Shown in pieces: positions 9,871 through 31,956 of a DNA stretch of 64,000 nucleotides. The stretch is from Halomarina oriensis (lineage in GTDB: Archaea; Halobacteriota; Halobacteria; Halobacteriales; Haloarculaceae). The notes beneath the pieces are model-generated. The model was not told the DNA's origin. It did not search any database and saw only the letters and a list, made by a program, of their open reading frames with translations. The position numbers and the translations under genes were made by a program. The DNA is taken from NCBI RefSeq assembly GCF_009791395.1, contig NZ_WSZK01000015.1:558001-622000 (forward strand), in the 5' to 3' direction. Numbering within the stretch: the stretch's first letter is position 1; each line of letters opens with the position of its first letter.

Positions 9871-10134
9871 TAGCGTCTGTCATGTGTTTCTAAGTAAAAG
9901 CTTTTCTTGGGTCGAATACTCAGAACACGGTTCCGACGTATGGCTAAACGTTGTTCGGCTATCGTTTACTGAGAGAGAATCAAACAAACGGAACCAAGAA
10001 TTGCTTGAATGACGGACGTCCACATTGGTACCCCTCCGTGGCATGAAGGTCGATCCAACGCCAAACAAGTCGCCCTCTGTCAGTTTCACCGCGCTCTCCA
10101 CGCGCTTAAGCCCCTTCGGCCGAGAAGCAGGCAC

Positions 10135-16318: not shown

Positions 16319-16390
16319 ATGGCGCGCAAGGACGACTACTACAACAATCCTTGCCGTCTTGTTACCTATACTATGCCGTCGAAGCGGTGA
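16319..16390 (+). pseudogene. Displaced 5' end of rlmE (stub left of attL)
   Basis: ATG at 16319 opens MARKDDYYN, the typical first residues of haloarchaeal RlmE/RrmJ. After the shared TACTACAAC (16337-16345) the frame runs into element DNA and stops at 16388-16390 after 14 unrelated codons. The rest of rlmE is about 14.9 kb away at 31198-31956. The sequence before this ATG probably still holds the original rlmE promoter (CGTATCC near 16289-16295), now driving only the stub or the element's left arm. Confidence 0.85.
16337..16345 (+). repeat. attL core
   Basis: TACTACAAC, identical to 31216-31224. Upstream AAGGA at the same distance (16329-16333 and 31207-31211) is also shared, so the recognised site may be AAGGA-N4-TACTACAAC. 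The core encodes Tyr-Tyr-Asn of RlmE. Confidence 0.75.
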
Positions 16391-16941
16391 GAACGGACTT
16401 CAGAACGCCGAGGAGATGGACGCCACGTATGGGAGGGACGTGGTGGTCCGCAGGCGAGAGACGGAAGTTGATTTGCCAGCAAGCTACCCTGCCTACTCCT
16501 CCTCGGCAACGGTAGTTCGGGGGCGGGGCGTATTGGTGCTCCGAGGGAGGGGACTCGTTCGCTGGACTGGTAGTGGGGTCGTAAGCATACTTCGGCAGTT
16601 TGGAGTTTACAAGCCACCCGTTTGAGGGCATACACGTCGAGGAGCATAATCAGTTCATCCGCCGCCTGTCAGCGACGAACCGCTCCGAAGCGCACTACCG
16701 AGTTCCAGAAGCCATCACACTATTTTCCGTCGCGGCCACCACCAAACAGGGGCTTGACCGCATCGGTCACCTCGGGCCGAGTCGAAATCGAGGATGATTC
16801 AGTAGTTGTTGGTGCGGCTCTCATCATCGGGAAACTCAATCATATACACCCCCGCTGTGTCATCCTCTGCCAGAGGAAAGTCGGATATACGCCGCTTCGA
16901 CTAACACAACTGCTTTCACACTCTCTCCGCACCACGTAATT
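16391..16941. other. Left arm of the element, no convincing gene
   Basis: About 550 bp with only short, poorly coding frames on both strands. A minus-strand piece near 16800-16870 reads like protein (VYMIEFPDDESRTNNY then stop), so this may be a decayed gene. No tRNA, transposase remnant or clear repeat was seen. Confidence 0.4.
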
Positions 16942-17220
16942 ATGTCAAGCGAGAATTCGGTTCGCGTCTGGCTGGTCGAACGAACGTACTCAGATGATGA
17001 GCAGAACCTCATCATCCTCGTCTACGCAACACCGGACGGCACGCAGTACTTCAGAAAAGAACGCGCCCTCACGAGCTTCACGGATACCCGAGATACGACC
17101 GCCGCACTCGACGTTGACCCCGACAACCTCGGTAGCGTTAACGAGACGGAACTCCGCGAGCAGTACGCCACCGAAGCAACGCGAATGGCAGACGAACACG
17201 ACCCCGACGACCCGATTTAA
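16942..17220 (+). CDS. Small acidic protein of unknown function
   Basis: Protein of 92 residues starting at ATG 16942. It has a mixed alpha/beta pattern (VRVWLVERTY, NLIILVYAT, TQYFRKERALTSF), a helix rich in Glu and Arg, and an acidic tail. The gene is followed 49 bp later by the metal regulator and may be transcribed with it. No family recognised. Confidence 0.6.
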   Translation: MSSENSVRVWLVERTYSDDEQNLIILVYATPDGTQYFRKERALTSFTDTRDTTAALDVDPDNLGSVNETELREQYATEATRMADEHDPDDPI

Positions 17221-17269
17221 CCCCCTTTCCAGCGACTCAGTTTAGTATTCGCGGCTCGAACCCGAGAAC

Positions 17270-18040
17270 ATGAAGGAATTCGTCTTCGCGCTCGACTACG
17301 ACCCGGGGTGCAACGCAATCGCAGATGCGCTTGCACAGTACCCGGACGCACAAATCCGGTCGCTTTCCTGCCACGTCACGTCCTCCAGCGTCTGGCGCGT
17401 TGACCACGTAACCGGGTCGCAGGCCGCGCTGAACGCGATTGAAACCGTCTTCCTCGACCCCGAGCACTGCACGGACTGTCTGGCAACTCAGGACTGCGGG
17501 GCCGAATGCGATAACACCGTTCTCGACCGTGACGAGGATACCCTCGTCGTCTACTCGCGGTGGTCGAAAGCCCGCGCGTGTACGTCCGTTCCGCACCTCG
17601 CACTCGACCATCTGGGTGACGGATTGCTGTTCGAGACGCACCGCTCCGAGCGGCGGTATGAATGGCGCGTCATCGCGCCTGACGATGCGAACATCAGCGA
17701 GTTCCACGACGCGCTTCGGGAGGAACTCTGTCGCTGTACGGACATCGAGTTCGTTCGTATCTCCGGCATCGACCCGTCGGTCACCAGCCCACCAGACGGC
17801 ACCTCGATGTCGGCTGAGCAGACCGAGGCACTGACCGCCGCCGTGAAACACGGTTACTATGAGACTCCGCGCGGCATAGAACTCGGGGAACTGGCCGAGA
17901 GACTGGAGATGCCTCGTTCGACGCTCTCCTATCGGCTCCGGCGAGCCGAGGCTCAGTTAGCCACCTCGTTTGTCGGGGGAGACGCCGGGTTCATCGACGC
18001 CCCATCGGAATCGGTCGAAGTTGGCGTGCGCCAAAGGTAA
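17270..18040 (+). CDS. HTH_10 (bacterio-opsin activator-like) regulator with Cys cluster
   Basis: Protein of 256 residues. The C-terminal HTH_10 domain (about 190-240: LTAAVKHGYYETPRGIELGE, then LEMPRSTLSYRLRRAE) is typical of haloarchaeal Bat-like regulators. The N-terminal 170 residues form a sensor-like region with CTDCLATQDCGAEC near 66-79, a probable metal site, plus CRC near 149-151. It ends 32 bp before the Zn/Cd-type ATPase gene on the same strand, so it is likely the metal sensor that controls it. Metal identity is inferred only. Confidence 0.82.
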   Translation: MKEFVFALDYDPGCNAIADALAQYPDAQIRSLSCHVTSSSVWRVDHVTGSQAALNAIETVFLDPEHCTDCLATQDCGAECDNTVLDRDEDTLVVYSRWSKARACTSVPHLALDHLGDGLLFETHRSERRYEWRVIAPDDANISEFHDALREELCRCTDIEFVRISGIDPSVTSPPDGTSMSAEQTEALTAAVKHGYYETPRGIELGELAERLEMPRSTLSYRLRRAEAQLATSFVGGDAGFIDAPSESVEVGVRQR

Positions 18041-18072
18041 TCGATAACCCCGTCCCGCGTCCAGTTTTTCGT

Positions 18073-20589
18073 ATGAGTGATGAGTCGGAGTCGGCTTCGA
18101 CGGGCCGACAGGCGGTGCAGGAGACGGTCACGCTCTCTGTACCCGAGATGGACTGTCCATCCTGTGCGGAGAAGGTCACCAAGAGCGTGAAGCGGCTCGA
18201 TGGATTGACCGAGGTAACTCCGAAGCCAACTACCGGAACGCTCAGCGTTGCGTACGACCCGGCGACGACCAGTCGCGAGGCCATCGTTGACCGCGTAGAG
18301 AACGCGGGGTACAAAGTTGAGAACAGCGGTGGACACCAAACGGCGAAGTTCACCGTCCCCGAGATGGATTGTGCGTCGTGCGCTGGCAAGGTCGAGAACG
18401 CGCTCGGGAAGCTCGACGGAGTGACCGAACGCGAAACTCGACCCACAGCGGGCACGGTGAGCGTCACCTACGATTCTTCGAAGCTCTCGCACGGGGAGAT
18501 TATCGCGGCGATTGAGGGCGCAGGGTATGAGGTGACGAATGCGGACGGCACCTCCGCCGAGACCGATTCCGGGGGGATGGCACCGCCCAGCGATGTCTGG
18601 ACGAGCAGTCGCGCGATGAAGACGTGGGCGAGCGGCGCGTTCGTCGCAATCGGTCTCCTCGTCGAGTTCATTCTCACGGGACTGAACACGACCGTCGTCA
18701 CGGTTCTCGAATACGGGTTCACCGTCGCGGACGTAGCGTTGTTGCTGGCAGTCGCGTTCGCCGGGGTACCCGTCGTTCGCAACGGCTACTACTCGGCCAA
18801 GAACCTGAACCTCGACATCGACCTGCTGATGGGGACGGCCATCATCGGTGCGACCGCCATCGGGCTCTACGAGGAGGCGGCGACGCTCGCGTTCCTGTTC
18901 AGCATCGCGGAGTTGATGGAGACGTACTCGATGGACCGCGCACGGAACTCCCTGCGCGAACTGATGGACCTCTCGCCCGACGAGGCGACGGTCCGGCGGG
19001 ACGGTGAGGAACGAACCATCCCCGTTGACGAGGTGGAGGTCGGAGATACCGTCATCGTCCGCCCCGGGGAGAAAATCCCTGTGGACGGCCAAGTCATCGA
19101 GGGTGAAAGTGCAGTTAATCAGGCCCCGATTACCGGCGAGAGCGTGCCCGTGGACAAGACCACCGAGGATGAAGTCTTCGCGGGCACCATCAACGAGGAC
19201 GGGTATCTCGAAGTGCGAGCGACCTCTGCGGCGTCGGACACGACCATCGCGAAGATTGTCGAGATGGTCGAGGACGCCCAGAGCAACAAGACCGAGCGCG
19301 AGCAGTTCGTGGAGCGGTTCGCGGACTACTACACGCCAATCGTCGTCGGGCTGGCAATCCTCACGATGACCATCCCTCCGTTAGCGTTCGGGCTCGGCTG
19401 GCAGACGTGGTTCGTACGCGGACTCACGCTTCTCGTCATCTCCTGTCCGTGCGCGTTCGTCATCAGCACGCCCGTCAGCGTGGTCTCCGCGATTACGAGT
19501 GCCGCGAAGAACGGCGTCCTCATCAAGGGCGGCAACCACCTCGAAGCGATGGGCGCAGTCGAGGCGGTCGCGACGGACAAGACGGGGACGCTCACGAAGG
19601 GCGAACTCACGGTGACGGATGTCGTCCCCCTGAACGGGAACGCCGAATCGGACGTACTTCGGACCGCCCGCTCGCTCGAACAGCGGAGCGAACACCCGAT
19701 TGCGACGGCCATCATCGACCACGCCGAGGATGCGGACGTAGCGGGGACGGACGTGACCGACTTCGAGAGCATCACCGGCAAGGGCGTTCGCGCGACGCTC
19801 GACGATACGACCTACTACGCTGGGAAACCCGGACTCTTCAAAGAACTCGGGTTAGACTTGGACCACTCGCACTACAGCACTGACGGCGGAGTCGCCGTTG
19901 AGGGCGCGACTGAGCGGTGTGACCGGGGCGAGTGCGTGAACCTCCACGACGAGTTGGTACCCAAACTGCAGGCGGAAGGGAAGACCATCGTCGTGGTCGG
20001 CACTGACCACGAGGTGACGGGTCTCATCGCCATCGCTGACGAGGTGCGGCCCGAGGCCAAACGCGCTGTCGAGAAGTTGCAGGAACAGGGCGTCGAGGTC
20101 GTGATGCTGACCGGCGACAACGAGCGGACGGCGCAGGCGATTGCCCAGCAGTTGGGGATTGACGACTATCGAGGGGAACTCCTACCCGAGGAGAAGGTCA
20201 GCGCGATAGAGGAACTCAAAGAGGAGTACGACGGCGTGGCGATGGTCGGTGATGGTATCAACGACGCACCCGCGCTCGCGACTGCGACTGTGGGCATCGC
20301 GATGGGCGCGGCAGGCACGGACACGGCCATCGAGACCGCTGACATCGCGCTGATGGGCGACGACCTCGCGAAGCTCCCGTACCTGTACGGGCTCTCGCAC
20401 AAGGCGAACGGGGTGATACGTCAGAACATCTGGTCGAGCCTTGGTGTGAAATTCCTGCTCGCCCTCGGCGTGCCGCTCGGCTACGTTAGCGTCGCGCTCG
20501 CGGTACTCGTCGGTGATATGGGGATGAGTATCGGCGTGACAGGGAACGCGATGCGTCTCTCGCGGTTGACCCCAGAGCGGTTCCGCTGA
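18073..20589 (+). CDS. Heavy-metal P-type ATPase, Zn/Cd/Pb type with two HMA domains
   Basis: Metal-exporting P1B-type ATPase of 838 residues. Two N-terminal HMA domains carry EMDCPSCAEK (about 29-38) and EMDCASCAGK (about 97-106). The membrane site CPC is at 458-460, the phosphorylated Asp at 502 (DKTGTLTKG), SEHPIATAI marks the nucleotide site and GDGINDAPALA the hinge. The last helix region has GDMGMSIGVTGNAMRL, whose Asp is characteristic of the P1B-2 (zinc, cadmium, lead) class. An insertion near 600-625 contains His and Cys (DHSHYS, CDRGEC), perhaps an extra metal site. The regulator gene precedes it. Confidence 0.93.
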   Translation: MSDESESASTGRQAVQETVTLSVPEMDCPSCAEKVTKSVKRLDGLTEVTPKPTTGTLSVAYDPATTSREAIVDRVENAGYKVENSGGHQTAKFTVPEMDCASCAGKVENALGKLDGVTERETRPTAGTVSVTYDSSKLSHGEIIAAIEGAGYEVTNADGTSAETDSGGMAPPSDVWTSSRAMKTWASGAFVAIGLLVEFILTGLNTTVVTVLEYGFTVADVALLLAVAFAGVPVVRNGYYSAKNLNLDIDLLMGTAIIGATAIGLYEEAATLAFLFSIAELMETYSMDRARNSLRELMDLSPDEATVRRDGEERTIPVDEVEVGDTVIVRPGEKIPVDGQVIEGESAVNQAPITGESVPVDKTTEDEVFAGTINEDGYLEVRATSAASDTTIAKIVEMVEDAQSNKTEREQFVERFADYYTPIVVGLAILTMTIPPLAFGLGWQTWFVRGLTLLVISCPCAFVISTPVSVVSAITSAAKNGVLIKGGNHLEAMGAVEAVATDKTGTLTKGELTVTDVVPLNGNAESDVLRTARSLEQRSEHPIATAIIDHAEDADVAGTDVTDFESITGKGVRATLDDTTYYAGKPGLFKELGLDLDHSHYSTDGGVAVEGATERCDRGECVNLHDELVPKLQAEGKTIVVVGTDHEVTGLIAIADEVRPEAKRAVEKLQEQGVEVVMLTGDNERTAQAIAQQLGIDDYRGELLPEEKVSAIEELKEEYDGVAMVGDGINDAPALATATVGIAMGAAGTDTAIETADIALMGDDLAKLPYLYGLSHKANGVIRQNIWSSLGVKFLLALGVPLGYVSVALAVLVGDMGMSIGVTGNAMRLSRLTPERFR

Positions 20590-20718
20590 TGTCTGTCGTA
20601 GGCGTCGTTCATGGGCGAGGCCCATAGAGAGGGGTCGGGAGTTCTCATACACGGGGAAATCACCGTGTTCACACGTTCGGCGTCGTCCACGCAGGCTGAA
20701 CGGTTATCCCGGGGTGAA

Positions 20719-20734
20719 GGTGCTCCTTTGCACC
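20719..20734 (+). promoter_or_regulatory. Small hairpin before the wHTH gene
   Basis: GGTGC-TCCTTT-GCACC forms a 5-bp stem with a 6-nt loop ending 19 bp before the ATG at 20754. It could be an operator half-site pair or an RNA hairpin; no further evidence. Confidence 0.3.
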
Positions 20735-20753
20735 GCGCGAACAGACCACCGCT

Positions 20754-21338
20754 ATGACCGACCCGAACCTCGCCCGTCACATCGACCGGCAGGCCGCCCG
20801 CTTCCTCCGCGCCGTCGAGTACTACGGCGGCGAAGCGACGATGACCGAAATCCGCCAACGGACTGGCCTCTCGCGGGACGTGGCTAACCACCGGTTCCAG
20901 CGGTTGGAGGACCTCGAACTAATCGAGATTTCGTACGCGGACGAGGGGTACGGGGACCGAAGGCCGCCGAAGGTGGCGCACCTCACCGGCCTTGCGCGGA
21001 AAGAAATCGAGCGCGGATTGCTCAGAATCCTCCGCGACGACGGCGATTCGACGGAGGGAGTCCTTGACGTGGAATCGGAGATGCGAGAGGTACGCGACCG
21101 GCTGGACCGCCATCAACGGCGACTTGACGTGCTCTCAGCGTCCGACCCCGAGGACGACCTCCATGAGCGAATCGACGCCGTGCAAGACCGACTGAACGAC
21201 ATCGAGACGTACAGCGACGAGTGGAATGAGGCCGCCGAATTCTACCTCCGGGCACTTCGCGCGGCGCTGGAGGACCACGGAATCGACGTGGGCGAGTATC
21301 TCCGAGAAGCCCAGCGCGAACCAGACTCGTCTGCCTGA
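20754..21338 (+). CDS. Winged-helix protein with C-terminal coiled coil
   Basis: Protein of 194 residues. Residues 10-75 form a winged helix (RFLRAVEYYGGEATMTEI, TGLSRDVANHRFQRLEDLEL) of the MarR/ArsR-like type common on haloarchaeal plasmids and proviruses. Residues 100-155 are a heptad-rich coiled coil (VRDRLDRHQRRLDVL... ERIDAVQDRLNDIE), followed by a helical tail. Such proteins often control element maintenance genes, but no target is obvious. It is separated from the ATPase by about 160 bp and probably has its own promoter. Confidence 0.7.
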   Translation: MTDPNLARHIDRQAARFLRAVEYYGGEATMTEIRQRTGLSRDVANHRFQRLEDLELIEISYADEGYGDRRPPKVAHLTGLARKEIERGLLRILRDDGDSTEGVLDVESEMREVRDRLDRHQRRLDVLSASDPEDDLHERIDAVQDRLNDIETYSDEWNEAAEFYLRALRAALEDHGIDVGEYLREAQREPDSSA

Positions 21339-21343
21339 GTGTT

Positions 21344-21445
21344 TCAAAACGGCCGCAGGTCACGCCAACGAAAGTCCACCTCCTCTCCGTCGTCCAACTG
21401 CACTCGGTACAGTACCCCGTCGCGTTCGTCACCTGTCTTCGGTTT
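21344..21445 (-). pseudogene. Possible remnant of a small gene
   Basis: A minus-strand frame of 33 codons without a start codon reads GDERDGVLYRVQLDDGEEVD and RWRDLRPF before TGA; its amino-acid pattern looks like real protein (beta strand pairs). A stop lies just upstream, while a GTG-starting piece (VKTEDR) sits in another frame. It may be a frameshifted or decaying microgene. Low confidence. Confidence 0.3.
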
Positions 21446-21547
21446 TCACTTCGTTGGAGATTAGGAAGCATCAGCGGGTTTCTATCGACCGACAAGTGTC
21501 AGTGTGAAGATAGTGCTCTAACATCCACCGTCAGCGACCTATCACGT

Positions 21548-21712
21548 ATGGTTCGCGATGTAGAACGCATCAGCCACGAGACCGCGCTCGATGGGACGTG
21601 CCCGGAGTGTGGAAGCCACGATTGTTACCCGGCTCTCGTCCGCGACGCCCGGGGAGTCCTTGACCTCGGCGCGCACTGTGACGACTGCCTCCAATCCGAG
21701 GTGCTGACGTAG
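21548..21712 (+). CDS. 54-residue zinc-finger microprotein
   Basis: Reads MVRDVERISHETALDGTCPE, then CGSHDC, then HCDDCLQSEVLT. Two CxxC pairs (CPEC and CDDC) plus one extra Cys suggest one zinc ribbon. The stop TAG is followed directly by the ATG of the next gene, starting a tightly packed set of small genes. No family recognised. A single ribbon this small more likely binds a protein or nucleic acid than catalyses a reaction. Confidence 0.6.
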   Translation: MVRDVERISHETALDGTCPECGSHDCYPALVRDARGVLDLGAHCDDCLQSEVLT

Positions 21713-22079
21713 ATGCTCGAACTCGTAACGGTCCTCGTGACGGGCATCGTCGGCGTGGCCTTCATCGGCTATTTCACTCCCAAAATCATCGTCTGGGGGT
21801 CGCTCGGAACCGCGATGATGTGGGCGATGGCACACCTCATCCCTGCGTTTGAGCCGGGCGAGGTGCTTGCGACGATTTGGCCCCACATCTTCGACCTGAT
21901 GATGGTCTACCCGACCGCCATCGGATTGGCGTGGGAGTCGCAGATGGCGGACGCTGGAATCCTCGGGGGGGCTGGCAGTCATATTGTGGGCCGCAATCCT
22001 GCTCCCGCCGTATCTGGCTGGTATCTGGTTCGGATTGCTGACGTGGCCGGAGCTTCTCGTCTTCAGGGTGATTCTTTAA
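21713..22079 (+). pseudogene. Membrane protein gene with frameshift in a G7 run
   Basis: ATG 21713 opens a hydrophobic protein: helices at about 3-20, 24-45 and 58-75. At the run of seven G (21965-21971) the frame turns into non-membrane sequence. With six G it would continue GGLAVILWAAILLPPYLAGI and a further hydrophobic stretch to TAA at 22077-22079, giving about 121 residues with four helices. The zinc-ribbon gene starts 3 bp later, which supports this end. Sequencing error, decay or slippage are all possible. Function unknown. Confidence 0.6.
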
Positions 22080-22081
22080 TT

Positions 22082-22339
22082 ATGACTGATGATTCACCCC
22101 GGTCCCGTACGGCGCGTTGGGAACTCGCCAAGTGGGACTGTCCAGAATGCGGGGGCGAACTGGGGCCGCTCGACGACCGTGACCCTTCGGTCTCGCAGGA
22201 CGATATTTGGCCCGACGACGGGGGATTCGATGAGGCCGCCTACGACGCCGCGAACCGGCTGACTACACCAGTCGTTATTTGCTCTGACTGCGGGTGTGAC
22301 TTCGACGTTCGGTTCGAGAAGCGCGAGGAAAAGGAATGA
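22082..22339 (+). CDS. Small zinc-ribbon protein, paralogue A
   Basis: Protein of 85 residues with WDCPECGG near the N-terminus and VVICSDCGCDFDVRF near the C-terminus, one predicted zinc ribbon split by a 45-residue acidic loop. The next gene encodes a paralogue with the same layout. Without the upstream frameshift, ATG 22082 would be 3 bp past the preceding stop. TTTAATTA (22075-22082) could serve as a separate promoter element only if a longer leader is used. Its end overlaps the next start by 4 bp (ATGA). Confidence 0.6.
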   Translation: MTDDSPRSRTARWELAKWDCPECGGELGPLDDRDPSVSQDDIWPDDGGFDEAAYDAANRLTTPVVICSDCGCDFDVRFEKREEKE

Positions 22340-22593
22340 GCGACATCGAAACCACCCTATGGGAGCACGTTGTCTGGATTTGCCCGCACTGTGGAGACGA
22401 GGACTTCCCCTCGCGCCTGCAACTGGTCGATTCGCGCGACGTGTCGATTGAATCCCGGGAGGTCTGGGAGGGCGAGTACGATGCTGAGTTGCATAGGCGA
22501 AAATACGCCACGGAAACAGCGGTCTACTGCACGGATTGTAAAACCGTGTTCGACGTGTCGTTCACGCCACGCTCGCGAGAGGCGGACGAATGA
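22336..22593 (+). CDS. Small zinc-ribbon protein, paralogue B
   Basis: Protein of 85 residues, same length and plan as the preceding one: WICPHCGD at the start, an acidic middle with EVWEGEYDAEL, then AVYCTDCKTVFDVSF at the end. Shared positions (W-x-CPxCG, YDA, VxCxDC, FDVxF) show a tandem duplication followed by divergence. It overlaps both neighbours by ATGA, so translation is probably coupled. Function unknown. Confidence 0.62.
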   Translation: MSDIETTLWEHVVWICPHCGDEDFPSRLQLVDSRDVSIESREVWEGEYDAELHRRKYATETAVYCTDCKTVFDVSFTPRSREADE

Positions 22594-22937
22594 GCGACGA
22601 CGAGTATATGACTCGGGTCGCAGTCCACGGGAGTGTCCCCGAGGACGTGCCCGGAGACATCGAGGTTACCAACGAGGAGCGCGACGCTATCGTGGAGATA
22701 CTCTTCGTTCGGTCGGACGACGAATATCGAGTGATGTCTCGCCACCATCAGACCCTCTTTCTCGACCACGGCGGTGGCCCGTTCGACGAGTTCGGAGATG
22801 CTCTGGAGTCCGCTATCGAGACCGCGCGCGACGAGGGGCTTCCGCTCCTCCGGCGCATCTACTCATGGGTGCCTGTGAGCGAGGCCGACGAACTCGGGGC
22901 CGACCGCATCCCGATTCCGTGGGAAGACGACGAATAA
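22590..22937 (+). CDS. Acidic protein of unknown function in the zinc-ribbon cassette
   Basis: Protein of 115 residues without Cys, with alternating strands and helices (DAIVEILFVRSDDEYRVMSR, DALESAIETARDEGLPLLRR) and an acidic end. The start overlaps the previous stop by ATGA. No family recognised. Its fixed place among ribbon genes suggests it is a partner in the same complex. Confidence 0.55.
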   Translation: MSDDEYMTRVAVHGSVPEDVPGDIEVTNEERDAIVEILFVRSDDEYRVMSRHHQTLFLDHGGGPFDEFGDALESAIETARDEGLPLLRRIYSWVPVSEADELGADRIPIPWEDDE

Positions 22938-22948
22938 CCCGACTCCCG

Positions 22949-23074
22949 ATGAAAGCAGTCCTACACAGACCCGTTTCTCCCGTACTGACGCAGAAACTCC
23001 GGGGGTTCGTGCGTCATAGGAGACGCGCCGCTCGGGAATCAGCAGGGATGGGTCCTGATTGGGTGTCTCGATGA
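22949..23074 (+). CDS. Possible 41-residue basic peptide
   Basis: Starts ATG 22949, 11 bp after the preceding stop, and reads MKAVLHRPVSPVLTQKLRGF then an Arg-rich stretch. Its TGA overlaps the ATG of the next gene (ATGA at 23071-23074), as elsewhere in this cassette. The high positive charge is unusual in a halophile and would suit nucleic-acid binding, but the frame may also be chance. Confidence 0.35.
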   Translation: MKAVLHRPVSPVLTQKLRGFVRHRRRAARESAGMGPDWVSR

Positions 23075-23508
23075 GCCACGCTCTCGAACTCGTTCGCGAC
23101 GTGCCGGAACACATCCGGTTCTACGATAACGAACGTGCGCTTTGCGGGGCCGATTGTACTGGCGAGAGCGCCCGGGTCGTTTCTGACGACCGAGACCCCG
23201 TGGCCGACGCGTCTCTCCACCTCTGCGCTGAGTGTGCCCGAGCGTGGGAAGCTCGTGCCGGAACGGTCGAACGTGAACCGACAGTTCGCTGTGCGTGTGA
23301 CCGCGCTGAGGGCGGACGCCTCTGGAAATGCGCTGAGGTCGTTCCGGCCAGCACCGCCCGGGCACTCAAACATCCCGCCGCCGACGGCCTCGCACCCGTC
23401 TGCCCAGATTGCTACCAGTGGATTCGAGAACATCCGCTGAACGACGTTGAAACGCCGATGGGTGAGGCGAAGACGTGGGCAGAAGTCAGTCGCGTTCACC
23501 CAGATTGA
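23071..23508 (+). CDS. Multi-zinc-ribbon protein
   Basis: Protein of 145 residues with several Cys pairs: CGADC near 28-32, CAEC near 54-57, CACD near 74-77, KC near 87 and CPDC near 112-115. This could bind two or three zinc ions. The C-terminus (YQWIREHPLNDVETPMGEAK) looks helical. Last gene of the overlapping cassette. Its end overlaps the convergent methyltransferase gene by 23 bp. ATG 23071 is preferred over an upstream ATG at 23059 because of the ATGA overlap. Confidence 0.62.
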   Translation: MSHALELVRDVPEHIRFYDNERALCGADCTGESARVVSDDRDPVADASLHLCAECARAWEARAGTVEREPTVRCACDRAEGGRLWKCAEVVPASTARALKHPAADGLAPVCPDCYQWIREHPLNDVETPMGEAKTWAEVSRVHPD

Positions 23509-24691
23509 GACGCTCGAATACCGCAAATGTCTCACGTGCCATCTCCGCTTTCTCCCTTGCCCGATAGTAGTGTGTGGACGCAGTTTTGTACGTAATCCCC
23601 ATTTCATCTCCCACCTGTTCCCACGTTAACCCACCCGCCCGCAACAGTGTGGCTTCCACCTCTCGTTCCGTAAGCCGACCAGTGGGGCCTGCAATTTGCT
23701 TCGAACTCGTTCTTACAGAATCAGTAGGAACGCGGTCGGTCACTTCCCAGAGGGATTTCAGCAGAGCGTACGCGATGTGTTCTGCGAGCTTCGGCGGAAC
23801 CGCGTTCCCTACCTGTCGCGTTCGAGCGTCGCGGTTTTCCCATCCGGCAAAGTCGTACGTCGGCGGGAACGACTGAAGCACAGCGCACTCGCGAATACTC
23901 AACTCCCGGTCCTCGAACGGGTGGATGTGACGATTCGATGCGGTTATCGTGCGCGCCGGTTTCGTTGGGTCAAGCCGTACTTGACGGTGCTTTCCGTGGA
24001 GACTCTCCCCCACGTTTAGTTGCGCTATTTTCTCGACCGTCGTCGGCCTATGGTCTGTCCACTCGTTATCCGGTAACAACTCTCCAGTAACCTGACTAAG
24101 CGCCTCCTGTACGGGGATTGGCTCACCACCCAGCGGTTCGGGATGCGTTGGTTCTCCACCCCTGACCCCGAAGAAGATAACCCGATGGCGGTTCTGCGGA
24201 ACTTCGAAATCAGCCGCATTCAGGACCTCGTATGCGACGTTGTATCCAAGCGAGTCCGCGCACTCGACGAGCGCGGCCATCGTTTCGCCCCCCTTGTGTT
24301 CGAGGAGCCCGGGGACGTTCTCCATCGCGAACGCGTGTGCATCGGCGGCTTCAACAACTTCGAGGAACGTCCATACGAGGTCGTTAATCGGGTCGTCAGG
24401 GTCTCGGTCGCTACTCTGGCTATAGCCTTGACAGGGCGGCCCCCCAATTACAACGTCCACGTCAGCCGGGGTGAGACCAACGAGGTCGAGGAGGTCCTCT
24501 CCAGTTGGGCCGCCATCGTCGAGCAAACGAGAGAGGTCTGCGGGTACGGCGAGCGTATCGTGGTGCAATCGGAACGTTTCGAGGGCCGCTGGCTCATAAT
24601 CGATGGCTCCGACCACCTCGAACCCTGCGCGGTGGAAACCGAGGGAGAAGCCGCCTGCACCGCAGAACAAGTCGAGAACCTTGGGGGCCAT
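23486..24691 (-). CDS. C5 cytosine DNA methyltransferase with C-terminal HTH
   Basis: Methylates cytosine C5 in a sequence-specific way. Motif I (DLFCGAGGFSLGF, about 7-19), motif IV with the catalytic Cys87 (GGPPCQGYS), motif VI (ENVPG), motif VIII (QNRHRVIFFG) and motif X (QVGNAVPPKLAEHIAYAL) are all present in order. After about residue 330 a 70-residue extension contains a helix-turn-helix (TEREVEATLLRAGG, TWEQVGDEMGITYKTASTHY) like LuxR or sigma-region-4 domains. No restriction gene is adjacent, so this is an orphan enzyme, perhaps self-regulating or protecting the element. Confidence 0.92.
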   Translation of the reverse strand: MAPKVLDLFCGAGGFSLGFHRAGFEVVGAIDYEPAALETFRLHHDTLAVPADLSRLLDDGGPTGEDLLDLVGLTPADVDVVIGGPPCQGYSQSSDRDPDDPINDLVWTFLEVVEAADAHAFAMENVPGLLEHKGGETMAALVECADSLGYNVAYEVLNAADFEVPQNRHRVIFFGVRGGEPTHPEPLGGEPIPVQEALSQVTGELLPDNEWTDHRPTTVEKIAQLNVGESLHGKHRQVRLDPTKPARTITASNRHIHPFEDRELSIRECAVLQSFPPTYDFAGWENRDARTRQVGNAVPPKLAEHIAYALLKSLWEVTDRVPTDSVRTSSKQIAGPTGRLTEREVEATLLRAGGLTWEQVGDEMGITYKTASTHYYRAREKAEMARETFAVFERLNLGERD

Positions 24692-24734
24692 ACAAACCGT
24701 CTGGCAGACTGACTCTTAGATTCACCGGGGACTA

Positions 24735-24860
24735 ACGGACCGCACTATAAGTGATATTTTAGTTATAACTTGGCGGAAGAGGGGTCTACTATATAAACAG
24801 TACTATATTATAGTTATATGGTAAGTCAAATATTCCGACAAGAATTATATACGCCAGCTT
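24735..24860. promoter_or_regulatory. AT-rich regulatory region with TATA box
   Basis: Strikingly AT-rich for this genome, with repeated TTATA and AGTTATA strings (for example ACTATATAAACAGTACTATA). TTATATA (about 24845-24851) lies about 27 bp before the ATG at 24875 and is the likely promoter of that gene. The rest may be a binding region for a regulator or a DNA-unwinding segment. Confidence 0.5.
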
Positions 24861-24874
24861 CGTAGTGGTGGACG

Positions 24875-25255
24875 ATGGCAACCGCAAACCATCCTGAAAG
24901 CCCCGCCGAATCGTTCCGCACCCTCGCAACAGACCTCATCGAGAGTGGCGTCGTCAGCATACTGGCCCTCAAAGAACCGCTCTTGGACGGCCAGCTGATA
25001 CTCTCCATTCACGCGGACACCGATGCGGACCCCGACCGCATTCATGCAGTCGCAGAACGCGCCCGCACTGTTCGTCTCGATGACCACCTCTTCACCGTCA
25101 GCATCGAGCCGGAACTGTTCCGTACTACCGCCCTCGGCCACGAAACGGTCTTCTTCAAACCTCCCCGGGAAGGGAAGGCAAGCCGAGTCGCGCACTCGAC
25201 ATCGCTGGATGAGGGTATCGACCGGCTTCTCGTCACAGTCTCCAACGAGGAGTAG
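24875..25255 (+). CDS. Protein of unknown function
   Basis: Protein of 126 residues with alternating helix and strand pattern (SFRTLATDLIESGVVSILAL, DGQLILSIHADTD, RIHAVAERARTVRLD) and no Cys or catalytic motif. It has its own strong AT-rich promoter and is followed by the iteron-like region, so a role in element maintenance is possible but unproven. Confidence 0.6.
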   Translation: MATANHPESPAESFRTLATDLIESGVVSILALKEPLLDGQLILSIHADTDADPDRIHAVAERARTVRLDDHLFTVSIEPELFRTTALGHETVFFKPPREGKASRVAHSTSLDEGIDRLLVTVSNEE

Positions 25256-25486
25256 CCTACGTACTCCCGAGTTTTATCGACTATCCACGTAGAACGCGTG
25301 TTCACAACCGCAGTACTGTAAACAGTCTGACCACCTCCGAACGCGCTCCAGAACTGGTCCAACCTCGAAACACTAACTAACTAAACATATTTACGGTAGT
25401 TGTCCGTAGTTGGTAGTACACAGGCTGAGTGGATGGGAACGGAAGCCCATCGACCCTCCTAACGAGCCCTCCCGCTCCTATCAAAG

Positions 25487-25736
25487 TTGTTAGGTGCGAA
25501 CCACCCGAGTTTGTTAGGTCAGCCCCGAAAACCGCCCTGAACGAGGGGTCAACGTAACCTTGACTTGTTGAAAAGTCAAGTGAAGTTGTGTTAGTGTGCT
25601 TCCGTTAGAGCCGACCCTATCTCTCTAAACCCGTTTTTCTACCCTCACACCAACAAAACCACCAACATCCGACCTAACAACTTTGTTAGGTCTGGTAGTG
25701 TAAGAGTATATAAATTGACTGCTCAACACCTAACAA
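25487..25736. repeat. TTGTTAGGT motif array (five copies)
   Basis: Plus-strand TTGTTAGGT at 25487-25495, 25511-25519 and 25683-25691; reverse copies ACCTAACAA at 25672-25680 and 25728-25736. The first two are 24 bp apart on the same face of the helix. The pair at 25672-25691 forms a 20-bp palindrome with a 2-bp centre. Degenerate copies (CTGTTAG) occur at 25740 and 25760. Confidence 0.75.
25559..25580 (+). other. Perfect hairpin in the iteron-like region
   Basis: CTTGACTT-GTTGAA-AAGTCAAG gives an 8-bp stem and 6-nt loop, lying between the two groups of TTGTTAGGT motifs. Confidence 0.6.
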
Positions 25737-25770
25737 TCCCTGTTAGTACGACCGGCTCTCTGTTAGGGAG

Positions 25771-26079
25771 CTACTCCACCGGGCTGACTCGCTGACGATA
25801 GATGTGATAGAGTTCGGCTTCGTGGATATGGCGGCACTTCGTCTCGGCCTCCGTCTGCATCATCACGTTCCGCTGGTTCTGTGACCATTCCTCGCACTCG
25901 CACCGTACCTCATCCCACGGCCTCGGAACATCATCCGGGGCCTCCACCAGAACGACCTCGAACACGCCGACCTTGTAGCGAATCTCACGAGTCACGCCTG
26001 AACGGTCGAGACTGACCAGTATCAAGCAGACATCTTCTTTCGACCCCAACCCTTTTGCACCGAACTCGGACGTTTGCAC
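25771..26079 (-). CDS. Short SWIM-like zinc-finger protein
   Basis: The C-terminal part reads EVRCECEEWSQNQRN then KCRHIHEAELYHIYRQ, a CxC-xn-CxH arrangement like a SWIM finger, preceded by a beta-rich region (VCLILVSLDRSG, YKVGVFEVVLVEAP). The start is uncertain: GTG at 26079 gives 102 residues and avoids the divergent gene at 26095, while the frame is open up to 26235. Haloarchaeal plasmids often carry small SWIM proteins of unknown role. The stop lies close to the motif array. Confidence 0.6.
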   Translation of the reverse strand: MQTSEFGAKGLGSKEDVCLILVSLDRSGVTREIRYKVGVFEVVLVEAPDDVPRPWDEVRCECEEWSQNQRNVMMQTEAETKCRHIHEAELYHIYRQRVSPVE

Positions 26080-26094
26080 CCGGTTTGCATTTCG

Positions 26095-26259
26095 ATGTCT
26101 ATGGATACGCGTTTCGACCTTGAGGCCGCCGGATACGAGCCAGTAGAGGATGACCCGGGATGGGTTCGATGCACCTTCTGTAGCACGAAAGTGTACGTCG
26201 GTCGCGGCGAGAAGCTCGTTGACCTCGCGCGACACAAAGACAGGTGCGAATGGCGATAA
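26095..26259 (+). CDS. Small zinc-finger protein (intact copy)
   Basis: Protein of 54 residues, MSMDTRFDLEAAGYEPVEDD then GWVRCTFCSTKVYV and HKDRCEWR. Ligands CxxC...HxxxC indicate a BED/C2HC-like finger. A decayed copy of the same gene lies at the end of the element beside the integrase. ATG 26095 and ATG 26101 are both possible starts. It is divergent from the SWIM gene with about 15 bp between starts. Confidence 0.65.
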   Translation: MSMDTRFDLEAAGYEPVEDDPGWVRCTFCSTKVYVGRGEKLVDLARHKDRCEWR

Positions 26260-26310
26260 CGGTTTTAGTGCTACTCAACACAACAACTCATCTTCGTCGT
26301 CCAAATCGCG

Positions 26311-26865
26311 TTACTCGACGTTTTCGACCAATTCGTCGAACGTCTCGTCTTCGCTGATTTCAGTCAGTGCCCGGTTGAGTAGCTCGCGAACGATGAACTC
26401 CTCGTAGTGCTGAGTCTCGCAGTACTCGCACGGCTTCATCTCCCGGGCGACGCCTTCGATGGCCTCGCCGTGTTCGCGGTACAACTGTTCGACCAGCGAA
26501 ACGACCCCCTCCCGTGCAGTCTCCTGTGCCCCGGTGAGTGCTTCGTCACTACCTTCAGGGAGGTCGTACGCGAACACGCGCGTGTTCGATTTGTAGTATT
26601 TGAGCGTCCCACCGCTGGCGTCTTCGAGCCGAGCGATTTCGACGAGACCAGCGTCTTTCAGAACGTTGACGTGGTGACGTACTGTTGTCTCTACCTTCTC
26701 CTCCCCACGTCGCTTCAGTTCCTCGTGAATCTCGCTGATGGTCATCTCGCGGTCGGCCAGCATATCGAGAATCTTCGCGCGTACGTCGTTCTCCAACGCC
26801 TTGGCCTTCTCCGGGGCAGTCGTGATGACGTTCCGCACTGGAACGTCAGTTTCGAGGAGAGACAT
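26311..26865 (-). CDS. ArsR-like winged-helix metal regulator
   Basis: Protein of 184 residues. Residues 22-95 form a winged helix (ENDVRAKILDMLADREMTIS, VETTVRHHVNVLKDAGLVE) of the ArsR type. The C-terminal region carries CEYCETQHYEEF near 147-158, a probable metal-sensing site. The gene is divergent from the copper-type ATPase gene and shares a 130-bp control region with it, so it most likely represses or activates that gene in response to copper or silver. Start ATG 26865 fits a normal N-terminus (MSLLETDVPV). Confidence 0.8.
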   Translation of the reverse strand: MSLLETDVPVRNVITTAPEKAKALENDVRAKILDMLADREMTISEIHEELKRRGEEKVETTVRHHVNVLKDAGLVEIARLEDASGGTLKYYKSNTRVFAYDLPEGSDEALTGAQETAREGVVSLVEQLYREHGEAIEGVAREMKPCEYCETQHYEEFIVRELLNRALTEISEDETFDELVENVE

Positions 26866-26995
26866 CCTTGCCACCGAGTACGGGAGTGAGTACCCTAAGG
26901 CTGTCGCAACCTCCTTCAACCTATAGAATTTGGATGCTACTATTACAACTCTCATCATAACGCCTTTCACTGTTCCACTCCAAGTCTATCCCACG
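26866..26995. promoter_or_regulatory. Shared control region of the copper-type regulator and ATPase
   Basis: 130 bp between divergent starts. GAGTAC occurs twice as direct repeats 12 bp apart (26876-26881 and 26888-26893), a candidate regulator site next to the regulator's own start. AT-rich CTATAGAATTTGG (about 26920-26932) and ATCATAA near 26955-26961 are candidate TATA elements for the two directions. Confidence 0.5.
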
Positions 26996-29296
26996 ATGAG
27001 TACCACACACGTCCAGTACGACATCGGGGGGATGTCGTGTTCGTTCTGCGCCGAGAGCATCCGCAAGGCGTACGAGCGAACGGAGGGCGTCGAGGAGGTG
27101 AACGTCAGTCTCGCCCACGAAGAGGTCCGAATCCGGTACGATAGCGGCGTGCTGGCCGAGGTCGACCTCAAGGACACGCTCCGAGACCTCGGGTACACCA
27201 TCCGCGACCCGGACAAGCAGAAACGATTCGAAGAGCAACAGCGAGAAGTCGAGCAGGCCACCCGCCGATTGACGCTCTCGGGCGCGGCGGCCATCGCGAC
27301 CGCCGGGCTGATGCTGTTCATGATATTCGTCCGGGGGACTTTCGAATCGCAGGCGCTCTGGATGGACCTCGTGACGCTGGGCCTCGCACTCGGAACGATG
27401 TTCGGTCCCGGGCGCTACATCACCGAGAAGGCGTACAACAGCCTCCGACGCCGCATCTTCAACCAGCACGTACTCCTCGAAGCCGGGGCATTCGCCGGAC
27501 TGCTTGGCGGCTTCCTCGGCCTGTTCGTCTTTCCGACGTTCCCAACAGTCCACTTCTTCGCTGTCTCGGTGTTCATCACGACGTATCACATCCTCTCGGA
27601 GTACACCAGCCTCATCGTCCGTACACGGGCATCACGAGCCGTACAGGGCCTACTTGACCTTCAGCCCGACACCGCCCGTCGCGTTCGCGACGGTGAGGTC
27701 GAAGAAGTCGAGGTGGACGAACTGGAATCGGGCGACCACGTGCGCATCAAACCCGGAGAGAGCATCCCCGTTGATGGCACAGTACTCGAAGGCGAAAGCG
27801 CCGTAGATGAGAGCGTCGCGACGGGCGAGTCTGTCCCAGTGGACAAGGGACCGGGCGACGAGGTGATTGGTGGAAGCGTCAACGAAACTGGGACACTCCT
27901 CGTGGAAGTAACTGCGACCGGCGACGACGCGTTCCTGAATCAAGTTGCGAGGCAAGTTGAGGAAGCGAGGACGATGAAACCCGGCGTCGTCCAGTTAGCA
28001 GACCGCGTGCTGAAGTACTTCGTCCCGGGCGTCCTCACCATCGCAGTCGCGTCTTTCCTGTTCTGGATACTCGTCCCTGTCGTCTGGTCAGGCGGCCCGT
28101 TCGGGACGGAGGCGAACGTCCAGCGTGGTGCGTTCGCGGCGCTGGCCGTCCTCGTTCTCGGGTACCCGTGTGCGCTTGGGATGGCGACGCCGCTTGCACT
28201 CATTCGAGGTGGCGGGCTCGCCGCGAACCGGGGAATTCTGATGCGGAGCGGGGATGCCTTCCAGATATTCCAAGACGTGGACACCATCGTCCTCGACAAG
28301 ACCGGAACCATCACCAAGGGTGAGCCTGCCGTCGAGGAGGTTGTCGCATTCGATGGCAACGAATCCGATGTGTTAACACGAGCGGCCAGTGCGGAGGCGT
28401 TTAGCGAACACCCCCTCGCGGATGCCATTCTCGATTGCGCAGACGAACGTGGCGTCGAGTTCCCCGACCCAGACGAGTTCGACAGTGTGACCGGGAAGGG
28501 GATTCGGGCAGAGGTAGATGAAATGCGGATTCTCGTTGGAAAACCCGGGTGGCTCACCGAGGAGGGCATCGATATGACTACTGCCCGGGACGACATCGAC
28601 CGCCTCCAAGCACGAGGCTATACCGTCGTCTGCGTCGCCGTGGATGAGACGGTCGTCGGCCTCGTTGCCATCGGTGACCCCGTGAAGAACGACGCCGCAG
28701 AGACCGTCGAACGGATGAAGGACGCCGGAATCACACCCGTGATGATTACCGGCGATAACGAACGAACTGCGACTGCCGTCGCAGAGACGGTCGGTATCGA
28801 CCGAGTGATGGCCGACGTGCTTCCCGACGACAAGCGCGACGAGATACGACGATTACAGGAGGGCGGTGAACGCGTCGCGATGGTCGGGGACGGCATCAAC
28901 GACGCGCCCGGGCTAACGCAAGCCGACATCGGCATCGCCATCGGCGCGGGCACTGACATCGCCATCGAGTCGGCGGACATCGTGTTGATGGGCGACCGGC
29001 TCGGTGGTGTGATGGATTCCTACGAGATTGGTAAGAGCAGTTATCGGAAGACGAAGCAGAACCTGCTGGCCGCGTTCTCGTTCAACGGTATCGGCGTGGC
29101 CGCCGCGACGACGGGCCTCGTCCACCCGGTGTTCGCGATGATTGCGATGGTCCTCTCCGTCTCGGTCGTCCTCGTAAACAGCTTCGCGGGGCAGTTGCTT
29201 CGGGGCGAGCGCCTCAATACGGACTTCACCGCCGAGTCCGACACCTCTGCGGTCGATACGGACGCGTCTGCTGGTGCTGAAATGAAGACGGCCTAA
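26996..29296 (+). CDS. Heavy-metal P-type ATPase, copper-like, with YPC membrane motif
   Basis: Metal-exporting ATPase of 766 residues with one N-terminal HMA domain (GGMSCSFCAES, about 10-20). The usual membrane CPC is YPC at 390-392 (LGYPCALGMATP). The phosphorylated Asp is 434 (DKTGTITKGE), followed by SEHPLADAI and GDGINDAPGL. The last two helices have FSFNG and VLSVSVV where classical copper ATPases have YN and MxxSS, so the transport site is altered while retaining Cys392, Asn and Ser. Divergent regulator and downstream HMA chaperone gene support copper or silver handling. ATG 26996 is chosen on HMA alignment. Confidence 0.9.
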   Translation: MSTTHVQYDIGGMSCSFCAESIRKAYERTEGVEEVNVSLAHEEVRIRYDSGVLAEVDLKDTLRDLGYTIRDPDKQKRFEEQQREVEQATRRLTLSGAAAIATAGLMLFMIFVRGTFESQALWMDLVTLGLALGTMFGPGRYITEKAYNSLRRRIFNQHVLLEAGAFAGLLGGFLGLFVFPTFPTVHFFAVSVFITTYHILSEYTSLIVRTRASRAVQGLLDLQPDTARRVRDGEVEEVEVDELESGDHVRIKPGESIPVDGTVLEGESAVDESVATGESVPVDKGPGDEVIGGSVNETGTLLVEVTATGDDAFLNQVARQVEEARTMKPGVVQLADRVLKYFVPGVLTIAVASFLFWILVPVVWSGGPFGTEANVQRGAFAALAVLVLGYPCALGMATPLALIRGGGLAANRGILMRSGDAFQIFQDVDTIVLDKTGTITKGEPAVEEVVAFDGNESDVLTRAASAEAFSEHPLADAILDCADERGVEFPDPDEFDSVTGKGIRAEVDEMRILVGKPGWLTEEGIDMTTARDDIDRLQARGYTVVCVAVDETVVGLVAIGDPVKNDAAETVERMKDAGITPVMITGDNERTATAVAETVGIDRVMADVLPDDKRDEIRRLQEGGERVAMVGDGINDAPGLTQADIGIAIGAGTDIAIESADIVLMGDRLGGVMDSYEIGKSSYRKTKQNLLAAFSFNGIGVAAATTGLVHPVFAMIAMVLSVSVVLVNSFAGQLLRGERLNTDFTAESDTSAVDTDASAGAEMKTA

Positions 29297-29502
29297 GCGA
29301 CGACCTCGTAGCCAGCATCGTGGATGGCGGTTCCGAGGTCGTCGTCGCTCACATCGTCTTCAACGACGACTTCGACCGCACCCGCCTCGTGGTCCGCTTC
29401 GGCGCGGCGGACTCCGCCTACGTTCTTCAGTGCCTTCTCGACGTTGCGCTCGCATCCGTTACAGGACATCCCTGTGACCTCGATACTTCGGCGTTGTACC
29501 AT
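29293..29502 (-). CDS. Heavy-metal-associated (HMA) chaperone, CopZ-like
   Basis: Protein of 69 residues, a single HMA fold with the metal loop GMSCNGCERNV (about 10-20), VEKALKNVGGV after it and a GYEVV end. Such proteins carry Cu(I) to P-type ATPases. The 3' end overlaps the ATPase gene by 4 bp in convergent orientation, so it is not co-transcribed with it. ATG at 29502 gives the standard start MVQRRSIEVTGM. Confidence 0.88.
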   Translation of the reverse strand: MVQRRSIEVTGMSCNGCERNVEKALKNVGGVRRAEADHEAGAVEVVVEDDVSDDDLGTAIHDAGYEVVA

Positions 29503-29619
29503 AGACGTATCTCCGAGCTTCGCGGGAATCAGACTTACGATGAACGTTGTAGCGGTAGAACACAGATGAACCGCTCGATGGACGGGTGACGCCCCCAGCG
29601 AACGCTTGATACATCTCAA

Positions 29620-29718
29620 GATGGGTCCGAGGCGAGCGTTGTTGGGGAAGGTGTACGCCGGTCGCGGCGAGAAGCTGTTAGATTCGCCCATTACATAACG
29701 CGGTGTGAGTGGCGTTAG
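29620..29718 (+). pseudogene. Decayed copy of the small zinc-finger gene
   Basis: DNA matches the 3' half of 26095-26259: TGTACGCCGGTCGCGGCGAG here and TGTACGTCGGTCGCGGCGAG there, then CGGTGTGAGTGGCG against AGGTGCGAATGGCG. The reading frame is broken by at least one shift, and the first Cys codon region is altered. Read across frames it gives KVYAGRGEKL and TRCEWR. It ends over the last bases of the integrase gene. Confidence 0.7.
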
Positions 29719-31166
29719 TCGCCCTCAGCGTGTTCCTCGGCAAGCTCCTCCAGTTCTTCGAGGGTGTAATCTTCGATGTTCTCCGTCAGCCGGTACTCGC
29801 TCTCGTTTTCGAGGTAGTTCTCGGCCATCGCCTCGTCCCCGACCAAGAAGGTCGAGAAGATGTCCTCAACCTCCGAATCGCTGAGGTCGGTATCGAGCCC
29901 CTGTTCGCTGTCCATCAGCAGGGTTGCGCGCATGAACGCCTTCTTGACGTGTTCGAACTCGGACTTGGGGAGGCGTGCGTACGGCGGCGCGCTTCCCTTC
30001 CGACGATTGTACTGCTGTATCACAGGGTCGTTCTCATCGGCAATCCGCGAGAAGTACTCCCACCACTCCGGCGGCTCTTCCGTCACCCGGAGGGTACAGC
30101 TTGCGCAGTACCGGCCCCCCGGCGGGAGGATGGCCCCACATCGGGGGCACTCCTTCATCGTCTCCTCTTCGGTGTCGTCAATCTGAACGCCCATCCGTTT
30201 CGCCGTTACCTCGGCGTCCTCGGTCGCCGTCGTGTGGGTGTAGCGTCCGTGCATCGGCGTATCATCGGTCCACCCCATCACGGTCTCGATGTCACGTTTG
30301 TCGAGCCAGTCCATCTTCCGCATCTCGGTCGCACGAGCGTGCCTGAGCGCGTGGGGATGGATACGAGCGGAGTCGATGTCGCTCCGACTGGCTGTCCGCT
30401 TAATCATCGTGTATATCGCGTGAGAGGACAGCCGTTCACCCTCGTCGCGGCCCGCTCGAATCGAGCAGAAGAGCGGGGCCTCTGGTTCGTCTGGTGTGGG
30501 GTGGTTGTTCAACCAGCGGTCGAGATACCCTTTGCTCCAACTCAGCGGCCTCTCCCGTCCCTCGCCCGTCTTCACGCCCGTCTTGTGGGGGAGGCGAATC
30601 CGGGCGAAACGCTCGGTACGGTAGTCGCGGATGTCCAACTGAACGGCGGCGGTCCGTCTGAGCGCCGCTTCGTACATCACCGCGATGAGGGCGGCGTCAC
30701 GTTCAGTGTGGGTAGCTTCGATGAGTTCGGTGACCTCCTCGGGCTTCAGCACCCACTCCTCGTCGATTTTCGAGTGTTCGATTTTCGGTGCGCTAATCTC
30801 CGATTTGTCGGCAGGGGACTTGTTCGACCAGTCCGCAAAGGCACGGGCGGCATAGCAGGTGTTCCGCTTGGTCCCGTCGCTGAGGTCTCGCTCTCTCGCG
30901 ACGCGTCTGATTGCGTCCTCCCAGTCCTCGGAGTGCCACTCCTCCGGGTCGTCGGCCAGCAATTCGTTCTCGTACCCGTGGGCTACGAGATACCGCAGTT
31001 CTCGTGCATAGTTCCTCGCGGTGCTCGGGGCCAAATCCTCTCGCCGGTCGTAGAGAAAGTCGAGAACCCGTCCTGAGTGTTCGGGCCGGAGTTCTTCCTT
31101 CACCTTAACCTTCTGGCGCTCTAAATACTCCTCAGAATGCGTCCTGTACTCGTCTGTGTCCGACAT
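29715..31166 (-). CDS. Tyrosine recombinase / integrase with zinc ribbon
   Basis: Phage-integrase-type recombinase of 483 residues. A SAM-like core-binding domain (about 30-125) precedes the catalytic domain: Arg170 (EAALRR), Lys195 (PHKTG), His272-x-x-Arg275 (HALRHARA), and Tyr309 (GRYTHT) as nucleophile. A C4 zinc ribbon follows (CPRCG at 340-344, CASC at 354-357), then an acidic helical tail of about 120 residues. The gene points away from rlmE, with its start only 32 bp from that start, placing it at the right edge of the element. ATG 31166 gives MSDTDEYRTH. Confidence 0.92.
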   Translation of the reverse strand: MSDTDEYRTHSEEYLERQKVKVKEELRPEHSGRVLDFLYDRREDLAPSTARNYARELRYLVAHGYENELLADDPEEWHSEDWEDAIRRVARERDLSDGTKRNTCYAARAFADWSNKSPADKSEISAPKIEHSKIDEEWVLKPEEVTELIEATHTERDAALIAVMYEAALRRTAAVQLDIRDYRTERFARIRLPHKTGVKTGEGRERPLSWSKGYLDRWLNNHPTPDEPEAPLFCSIRAGRDEGERLSSHAIYTMIKRTASRSDIDSARIHPHALRHARATEMRKMDWLDKRDIETVMGWTDDTPMHGRYTHTTATEDAEVTAKRMGVQIDDTEEETMKECPRCGAILPPGGRYCASCTLRVTEEPPEWWEYFSRIADENDPVIQQYNRRKGSAPPYARLPKSEFEHVKKAFMRATLLMDSEQGLDTDLSDSEVEDIFSTFLVGDEAMAENYLENESEYRLTENIEDYTLEELEELAEEHAEGD

Positions 31167-31197
31167 ACTGAAATTCCTGTGAACGGAGATAGTATTC

Positions 31198-31956
31198 ATG
31201 ACAGATAAGGATATGTACTACAACCGCGCGAAGCAGGAGGGCTACCGTTCTCGCGCGGCGTACAAGCTGAAGCAGTTGAACGAGGAGTCACACCTCGTCG
31301 AGGCGGGCGACACCGTCGTCGACCTCGGCGCAGCGCCCGGCGGGTGGCTACAGGTCGCCGCGGAACTGGTGGGCGACCACGGCACCGTCGTCGGCGTCGA
31401 CCTCCAGCGCATCGAGGACGTCGACGGCGTCGAGACGGTTCGCGGCGACATGACCGACGAGGACGTTCGGGCCGAACTGGTCGACCGAGTCGGAGAGGCG
31501 GACGTCGTCCTCTCGGACATGGCTCCGAACATGACCGGAGAGTACAACCTCGACCACGCCCGCTCGGTCCACCTCGCTCGCCAGGCGTTCGAGACGGCGA
31601 TGGAAGTGCTCGCGCCGGGCGGTGACTTCGTCGCCAAGGTGTTCGACGGGCCGGACCTCGCGGACCTGAAGGCGGACGTCGAACACGAGTTCCGCTACGT
31701 CCGGGAGGTCCGCCCGAAGGCCTCGCGCAAGGAGTCCTCCGAACTCTACCTCGTCGCCAAACGCCGACTCACCGCCCCCGTCCGCGAGGGCGACGAGGTC
31801 GACGTGACTATCGAGGACGTCGGCAGCGAGGGCGACGGTATCGCCAAGATCGAGGGCTACACGCTGTTCGTGCCGGACACCGAGACGGACGACGAGGTGA
31901 CGGTCCGTGTGACGGACGTGAAAGCGCGCTTCGGCTTCGCGGAGCAGACGGAGTAG
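31198..31956 (+). CDS. rlmE: 23S rRNA 2'-O-ribose methyltransferase RlmE (RrmJ/FtsJ) with TRAM domain
   Basis: Methylates the 2'-O of a uridine in the A loop of 23S rRNA. The 252-residue protein has the SAM loop DLGAAPGGWLQ (42-52), SDMAPN, VAKVFDG and the catalytic Lys-Asp-Lys-Glu residues, plus a C-terminal TRAM RNA-binding domain (about 190-250) usual in archaeal RlmE. The first nine codons (MTDKDMYYN) come from the inserted element and replace MARKDDYYN, which remains at 16319. The reading frame and fold are restored. Its promoter must now be the 31-bp gap before it or element DNA beyond. Confidence 0.95.
   Translation: MTDKDMYYNRAKQEGYRSRAAYKLKQLNEESHLVEAGDTVVDLGAAPGGWLQVAAELVGDHGTVVGVDLQRIEDVDGVETVRGDMTDEDVRAELVDRVGEADVVLSDMAPNMTGEYNLDHARSVHLARQAFETAMEVLAPGGDFVAKVFDGPDLADLKADVEHEFRYVREVRPKASRKESSELYLVAKRRLTAPVREGDEVDVTIEDVGSEGDGIAKIEGYTLFVPDTETDDEVTVRVTDVKARFGFAEQTE
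31216..31224 (+). repeat. attR core
   Basis: TACTACAAC within codons 7-9 of rlmE, identical to 16337-16345. Together these mark the crossover region of the integrated element. Confidence 0.75.

Follow-up and report, generated by a model that had tools for sequence, protein, structure and literature searches.

To our knowledge, the replication mode of most haloarchaeal integrative elements is not known. Haloarchaeal origins are recognised by an AT-rich stretch enclosed by G-string-bearing inverted repeats, located beside orc1/cdc6 genes (PMC3528665). In SNJ2, the origin is the noncoding stretch that immediately follows rep, where a variable palindrome is found beside a hairpin (PMC13107129). 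The locus described here is a gene-free region in a 14.9-kb integrative element of Halomarina oriensis. The whole stretch of DNA analysed, a window of 64,000 nucleotides, provides the coordinates used below unless a contig is named. Like the Orc1/Cdc6 origins (ORB), the locus has inverted repeat blocks flanking lower-GC intergenic DNA; unlike them, it has no adjacent orc1/cdc6 gene, an ORB-type G-string was not found in it, and its repeats measure 9-10 bp instead of ~20-30 bp. With the rolling-circle origin of SNJ2 and the betapleolipoviruses (RepSNJ2, Rep-Arvir) it shares an element-specific palindrome and a hairpin in noncoding DNA of an integrase-bearing haloarchaeal element, whereas its element has no DUF7845 protein, the gap between hairpin and palindrome is tens to ~100 nt compared with ~10 nt in SNJ2, and its hairpin is at chance level. 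PF25227 (DUF7845) had a single match in the genome, on contig C24, and the palindromes downstream of that match are unrelated to the locus.

Repeats in the gene-free region

The features of the locus, its element and the related elements are listed in Table 1. A first-pass annotation had described the region as free of genes and placed between converging ones; no plausible open reading frame was found in it, and the flanking 126-aa and SWIM-type genes do point towards each other. Rfam and tRNA searches of the region gave no matches. DNA similarity to the region was found in none of the other 145 genomes of the family and in none of the plasmids, and relatives of the SWIM, 126-aa and 115-aa proteins were not found among viral contigs. 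A literature text search for TTGTTAGGT returned only unrelated papers among the matches listed. The locus is known from one element only.

Table 1. Coordinates of the locus, the surrounding element and the Rep-like modules of related elements (window positions unless a contig is named)
Feature	Position	Strand	Sequence or remark
Gene-free locus	25256-25770		GC 0.49, compared with 0.60 for the element
Palindrome A	25477-25494		CCTATCAAAGTTGTTAGG, one mismatch; contains the 25487 copy of TTGTTAGGT
Half-site	25511-25519	+	TTGTTAGGT
Hairpin	25559-25580		CTTGACTT-gttgaa-AAGTCAAG; not significant
Palindrome B	25671-25692		GACCTAACAA-CT-TTGTTAGGTC; contains the 25672(-) and 25683(+) copies
TATA box	25707-25714		TATATAAA; by sequence, usable for either strand
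Site C	25728-25746		ACCTAACAATCCCTGTTAG, imperfect palindrome; contains the 25728(-) copy
Weaker half-site	25758-25769	+	TCTGTTAGGGAG
126-aa protein	24875-25255	+	Haloarcula amylolytica homologue with 45% identity
~74-aa SWIM-type zinc-finger protein	25771-25995	-	CxC...CxH; right-hand neighbour, conserved in four elements
Small zinc-finger ORF	26098-26259	+	Divergent from the SWIM gene; kept in relatives
Integrative element, 14.9 kb	16337-31224		Site empty in G055 and G056, two genomes of the same genus
Core direct repeat	16337-16345 and 31216-31224		TACTACAAC; core also read in G054
Tyrosine integrase of the element	29715-31199	-	
~450-470-aa protein with noncoding region	L023:8255-9652 with 9653-10230		
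~450-470-aa protein with noncoding region	L025:5037-6434 with 6435-7020		
~450-470-aa protein with noncoding region	L029:7991-9331 with 9332-9697		

The 4,069,707-base genome contains seven exact copies of TTGTTAGGT, five of them within 250 bp (25487-25736), compared with a chance expectation of 0.06 for the whole window. As had been reported, three copies of the cluster are on one strand (25487+, 25511+, 25683+) and two on the other (25672-, 25728-), and all are exact. The remaining two copies are found inside a gene on another contig and at 8607-8615 (minus strand) of the window, outside the element, where the motif lies between converging AdoHcyase and Fic genes by a low-GC Fic island. The 22-bp inverted pair CCTAACAANNTTGTTAGG has its single exact genome site in the locus, with a one-mismatch copy at 25477-25494, and was present in 0 of 391 sampled genomes elsewhere in the order. 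The core GTTAG was counted 12 times in the 515 bp, compared with a mean of 2.1 in 1000 dinucleotide shuffles, and TGTTAG 8 times, compared with 0.5 expected. The repeats also form inverted arms of 19 nt with 95% complementarity, 176 nt apart, and a second pairing of 23 nt with 74% complementarity, 208 nt apart. The motif cluster is a real feature.

Some details of the earlier description were revised. What had been called a perfect 20-bp palindrome does consist of two 10-bp arms, but it is not perfect, the centre CT not being self-complementary. A near-identical palindrome (25477-25494) had been overlooked, as had the weaker half-sites at 25741 and 25761. The TATA box was present as described; it is placed between palindromes B and C, yet no gene starts there. 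The 8-bp hairpin exists as well, but an equally good one was obtained in 74 of 2000 shuffles and the window has 30 such hairpins, and it is therefore no evidence on its own.

In searches of viral sequences, exact palindromes were found mostly on low-GC or otherwise unrelated contigs, and the two-copy direct-repeat pattern gave >100 matches and was uninformative. Palindromes of the form GCCTAACAAATTTGTTAGGC are repeated on IMG/VR contigs L011 (6911-6974) and L018 (3964-7798) and resemble integron attC ends.

The integrative element and its relatives

The ends of the element were defined by alignment with two genomes of the same genus (G055 and G056), in which the DNA to the left of 16345 runs directly into that to the right of 31216, with TACTACAAC shared. 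The element sits within the coding sequence of rlmE (FtsJ), at its 5' end. It brings a new rlmE start (ATGACAGATAAGGATATG...), the original start being orphaned at 16319, and the N-terminus of the rlmE product was swapped by the insertion (16319-16345 and 31198-31224). Besides the integrase, the element encodes small zinc-finger proteins, a C5 DNA methylase and a pair of heavy-metal P-type ATPases with their regulators. Positions 26159-26259, from the 3' part of the small zinc-finger ORF, recur as a decayed copy at 29620-29718, beside the integrase gene, and an ArsR/P-type ATPase/HMA cassette looks to have been inserted between these direct repeats.

Related elements were found by searches with the two flanking proteins of the locus. 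One fully syntenic element was obtained, from Haloarcula amylolytica JCM 13557 (G007), together with partly syntenic elements from Haloferax marinum (G438) and Haloprofundus marisrubri SB9 (G321). The H. amylolytica element has 83.5% DNA identity to positions 21497-23442 of the window. The small membrane protein encoded at 21713-22339, which is conserved in this element family, diverges from its H. amylolytica counterpart after ~90 residues, a frameshift or a minor rearrangement being possible causes, and with such a protein the window element may be decaying.

Left of the SWIM gene, the H. amylolytica and Hfx. marinum elements have a 465-471-aa gene and ~600 bp of noncoding DNA; H. amylolytica has them between its 126-aa and SWIM genes, Hfx. 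marinum ahead of its SWIM gene. The 126-aa homologue of H. amylolytica is directly upstream of this 465-aa Rep-like gene, which is absent from the window element; the window genome as a whole has no homologue of it. The noncoding DNA after the gene aligns closely between the two genera and contains inverted arms of 29-30 bp, ~305 bp apart. A 49%-identical protein in a third genome, G241, is followed by similar arms 295 bp apart. The arms of the relatives have GGGTTGCTTCCCGCCC behind a G-string in common, with small changes in G241, and flank DNA of 46-48% GC. In three haloarchaeal genera, the ~450-470-aa protein was always followed by a noncoding region with inverted arms of GGGTTGCTTCCCGCCC and a G-string ~300 bp apart and by a stretch rich in TAGTAGTAG.

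Going by this arrangement, the ~465-aa protein and the inverted-arm region are a candidate new initiator-origin module. The protein had no family match in Pfam, PHROG or NCBIfam and no relative among the phages, plasmids and viral contigs searched, and its AlphaFold2 model (pLDDT 35) was unusable. In the Hpf. marisrubri element, an MCM helicase gene (L024:8551-10638) was observed close to the SWIM/zinc-finger pair and would give this element family another means of replicating.

Candidate functions of the locus

The locus is read here, tentatively and with some hesitation, as a cis-acting replication or maintenance site of the 14.9-kb element, perhaps an orphaned one. This is favoured because the syntenic slot holds an origin-like module in relatives and because the motif is near-unique. 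In this slot the window element has GTTAG-type clusters of its own, inverted and placed around a centre of lower GC. We infer both protein binding and a replication or maintenance function: a DNA-binding protein would recognise TTGTTAGGT and occupy the inverted clusters (left ~25477-25519, right ~25671-25769) around the lower-GC centre, and the occupied clusters would initiate replication or keep the excised circle from being lost. The cognate protein could be encoded by the element or the host and have escaped recognition, or could have been lost together with the Rep-like gene.

No sequence similarity was found between the noncoding module of the relatives and the locus, nor were the GGGTTGCTTCCCGCCC arms found in it. 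Domain searches of the element proteins found no DUF7845/Rep-Arvir, Orc1/Cdc6 or partition ATPase domain, which bears out the first-pass statement that no known Rep gene is present. The accompanying reading as an iteron-based origin was upheld in part: the region is a cluster of repeats in a haloarchaeal element, and its place in the syntenic slot of an origin-like module supports the idea by position, but the Rep-like gene is missing and the motif is not shared. An origin is thus possible but unproven. Absence of the motif from related elements had been named as a point against that reading, and the relatives do lack TTGTTAGGT. A more specific version is considered rather unlikely. In it, the locus would be an origin using an undescribed initiator for TTGTTAGGT, and the slot would accept several initiator-origin cassettes that are unrelated and can replace one another, the ~465-aa module being a second such cassette.

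The alternative that survives best, possible although of limited probability, is an operator array. A dimeric repressor would bind palindrome B and site C around TATATAAA, with the left cluster reached by looping, and would control transcription of a noncoding or antisense RNA from one strand or from both. This explanation is kept alive because the initiator and the G-string are missing, the motif is not conserved, and palindrome B and site C fit the TATA box: the start expected ~25 nt past the box would fall in site C on the plus strand and in palindrome B on the minus strand. Dimer-type palindromes would also suit a regulator, and the predicted folding of each strand is slightly better than that of shuffled sequences (z -2.6, -3.1), but this excess is largely expected from inverted repeats anyway. 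No open reading frame starts at either predicted start site, and no TATA box is suitably spaced from the left cluster. Related sites were not found at promoters of regulator genes in the element; other TGTTAG matches were single and weak.

It is unlikely that the locus is a decayed or orphan remnant, left behind when a different Rep-type module lost its protein gene, and now without function. The absence from the window genome of the Rep-like gene of two syntenic or partly syntenic relatives and the divergent C-terminus of the membrane protein at 21713-22339 would agree with such decay, but five letter-perfect copies are not to be expected after long neglect, unless the loss was recent. A partition (parS-like) centromere, also proposed in the first pass, is very unlikely and was rejected, since clustered palindromes would fit but no ParA/Soj-type ATPase was found among the element proteins and nothing positive speaks for it.

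The lowest probability is given to a recombination site of the integron attC-like or arm-type integrase kind. The R''/R' ends of attC sites follow the consensus RYYYAAC/GTTRRRY. The ACCTAAC/GTTAGGT 7-mers of the locus fit it, and some viral contigs (L011, L018) carry repeated GCCTAACAA..TTGTTAGGC palindromes, but the attC reading was rejected because the spacing is far below that of attC, the integrase scored 30 bits against an integron-model cut-off of 265, and the mapped att core TACTACAAC (16337/31216) has no TTGTTAGGT and lies ~9 and 5.5 kb off. With these distances to the element ends the locus is mid-element and is not an attachment site.

Comparison with known systems

Considered as an Orc1/Cdc6 origin, a Rep-Arvir origin or an integron, the locus lacked defining features that were tested: an adjacent orc1/cdc6 gene and a G-string in its inverted repeats for the first, an upstream DUF7845 Rep gene for the second, and paired R/L boxes of attC length with an integron integrase for the third. 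The ~465-aa module shares with it the syntenic slot and inverted arms around lower-GC DNA, but differs in sequence, in arm spacing (~300 bp compared with ~180-210 in the locus) and in having a protein gene. Bacterial iteron origins resemble the locus in their clustered short repeats, and the 9-bp word of the locus is nearly unique in the genome; unlike them, the locus has neither a regular tandem array nor a Rep gene. At most, it would work like an iteron-bearing origin, and membership of a family cannot be claimed. The arms of the relatives have G-strings and a lower-GC layout like those of haloarchaeal origins (PMC3528665), with an undescribed protein in place of orc1/cdc6. Neither the locus nor the Rep-like/inverted-arm module of the relatives could be matched to a described Rep family in these searches, and together they provide two small, clonable origin candidates.
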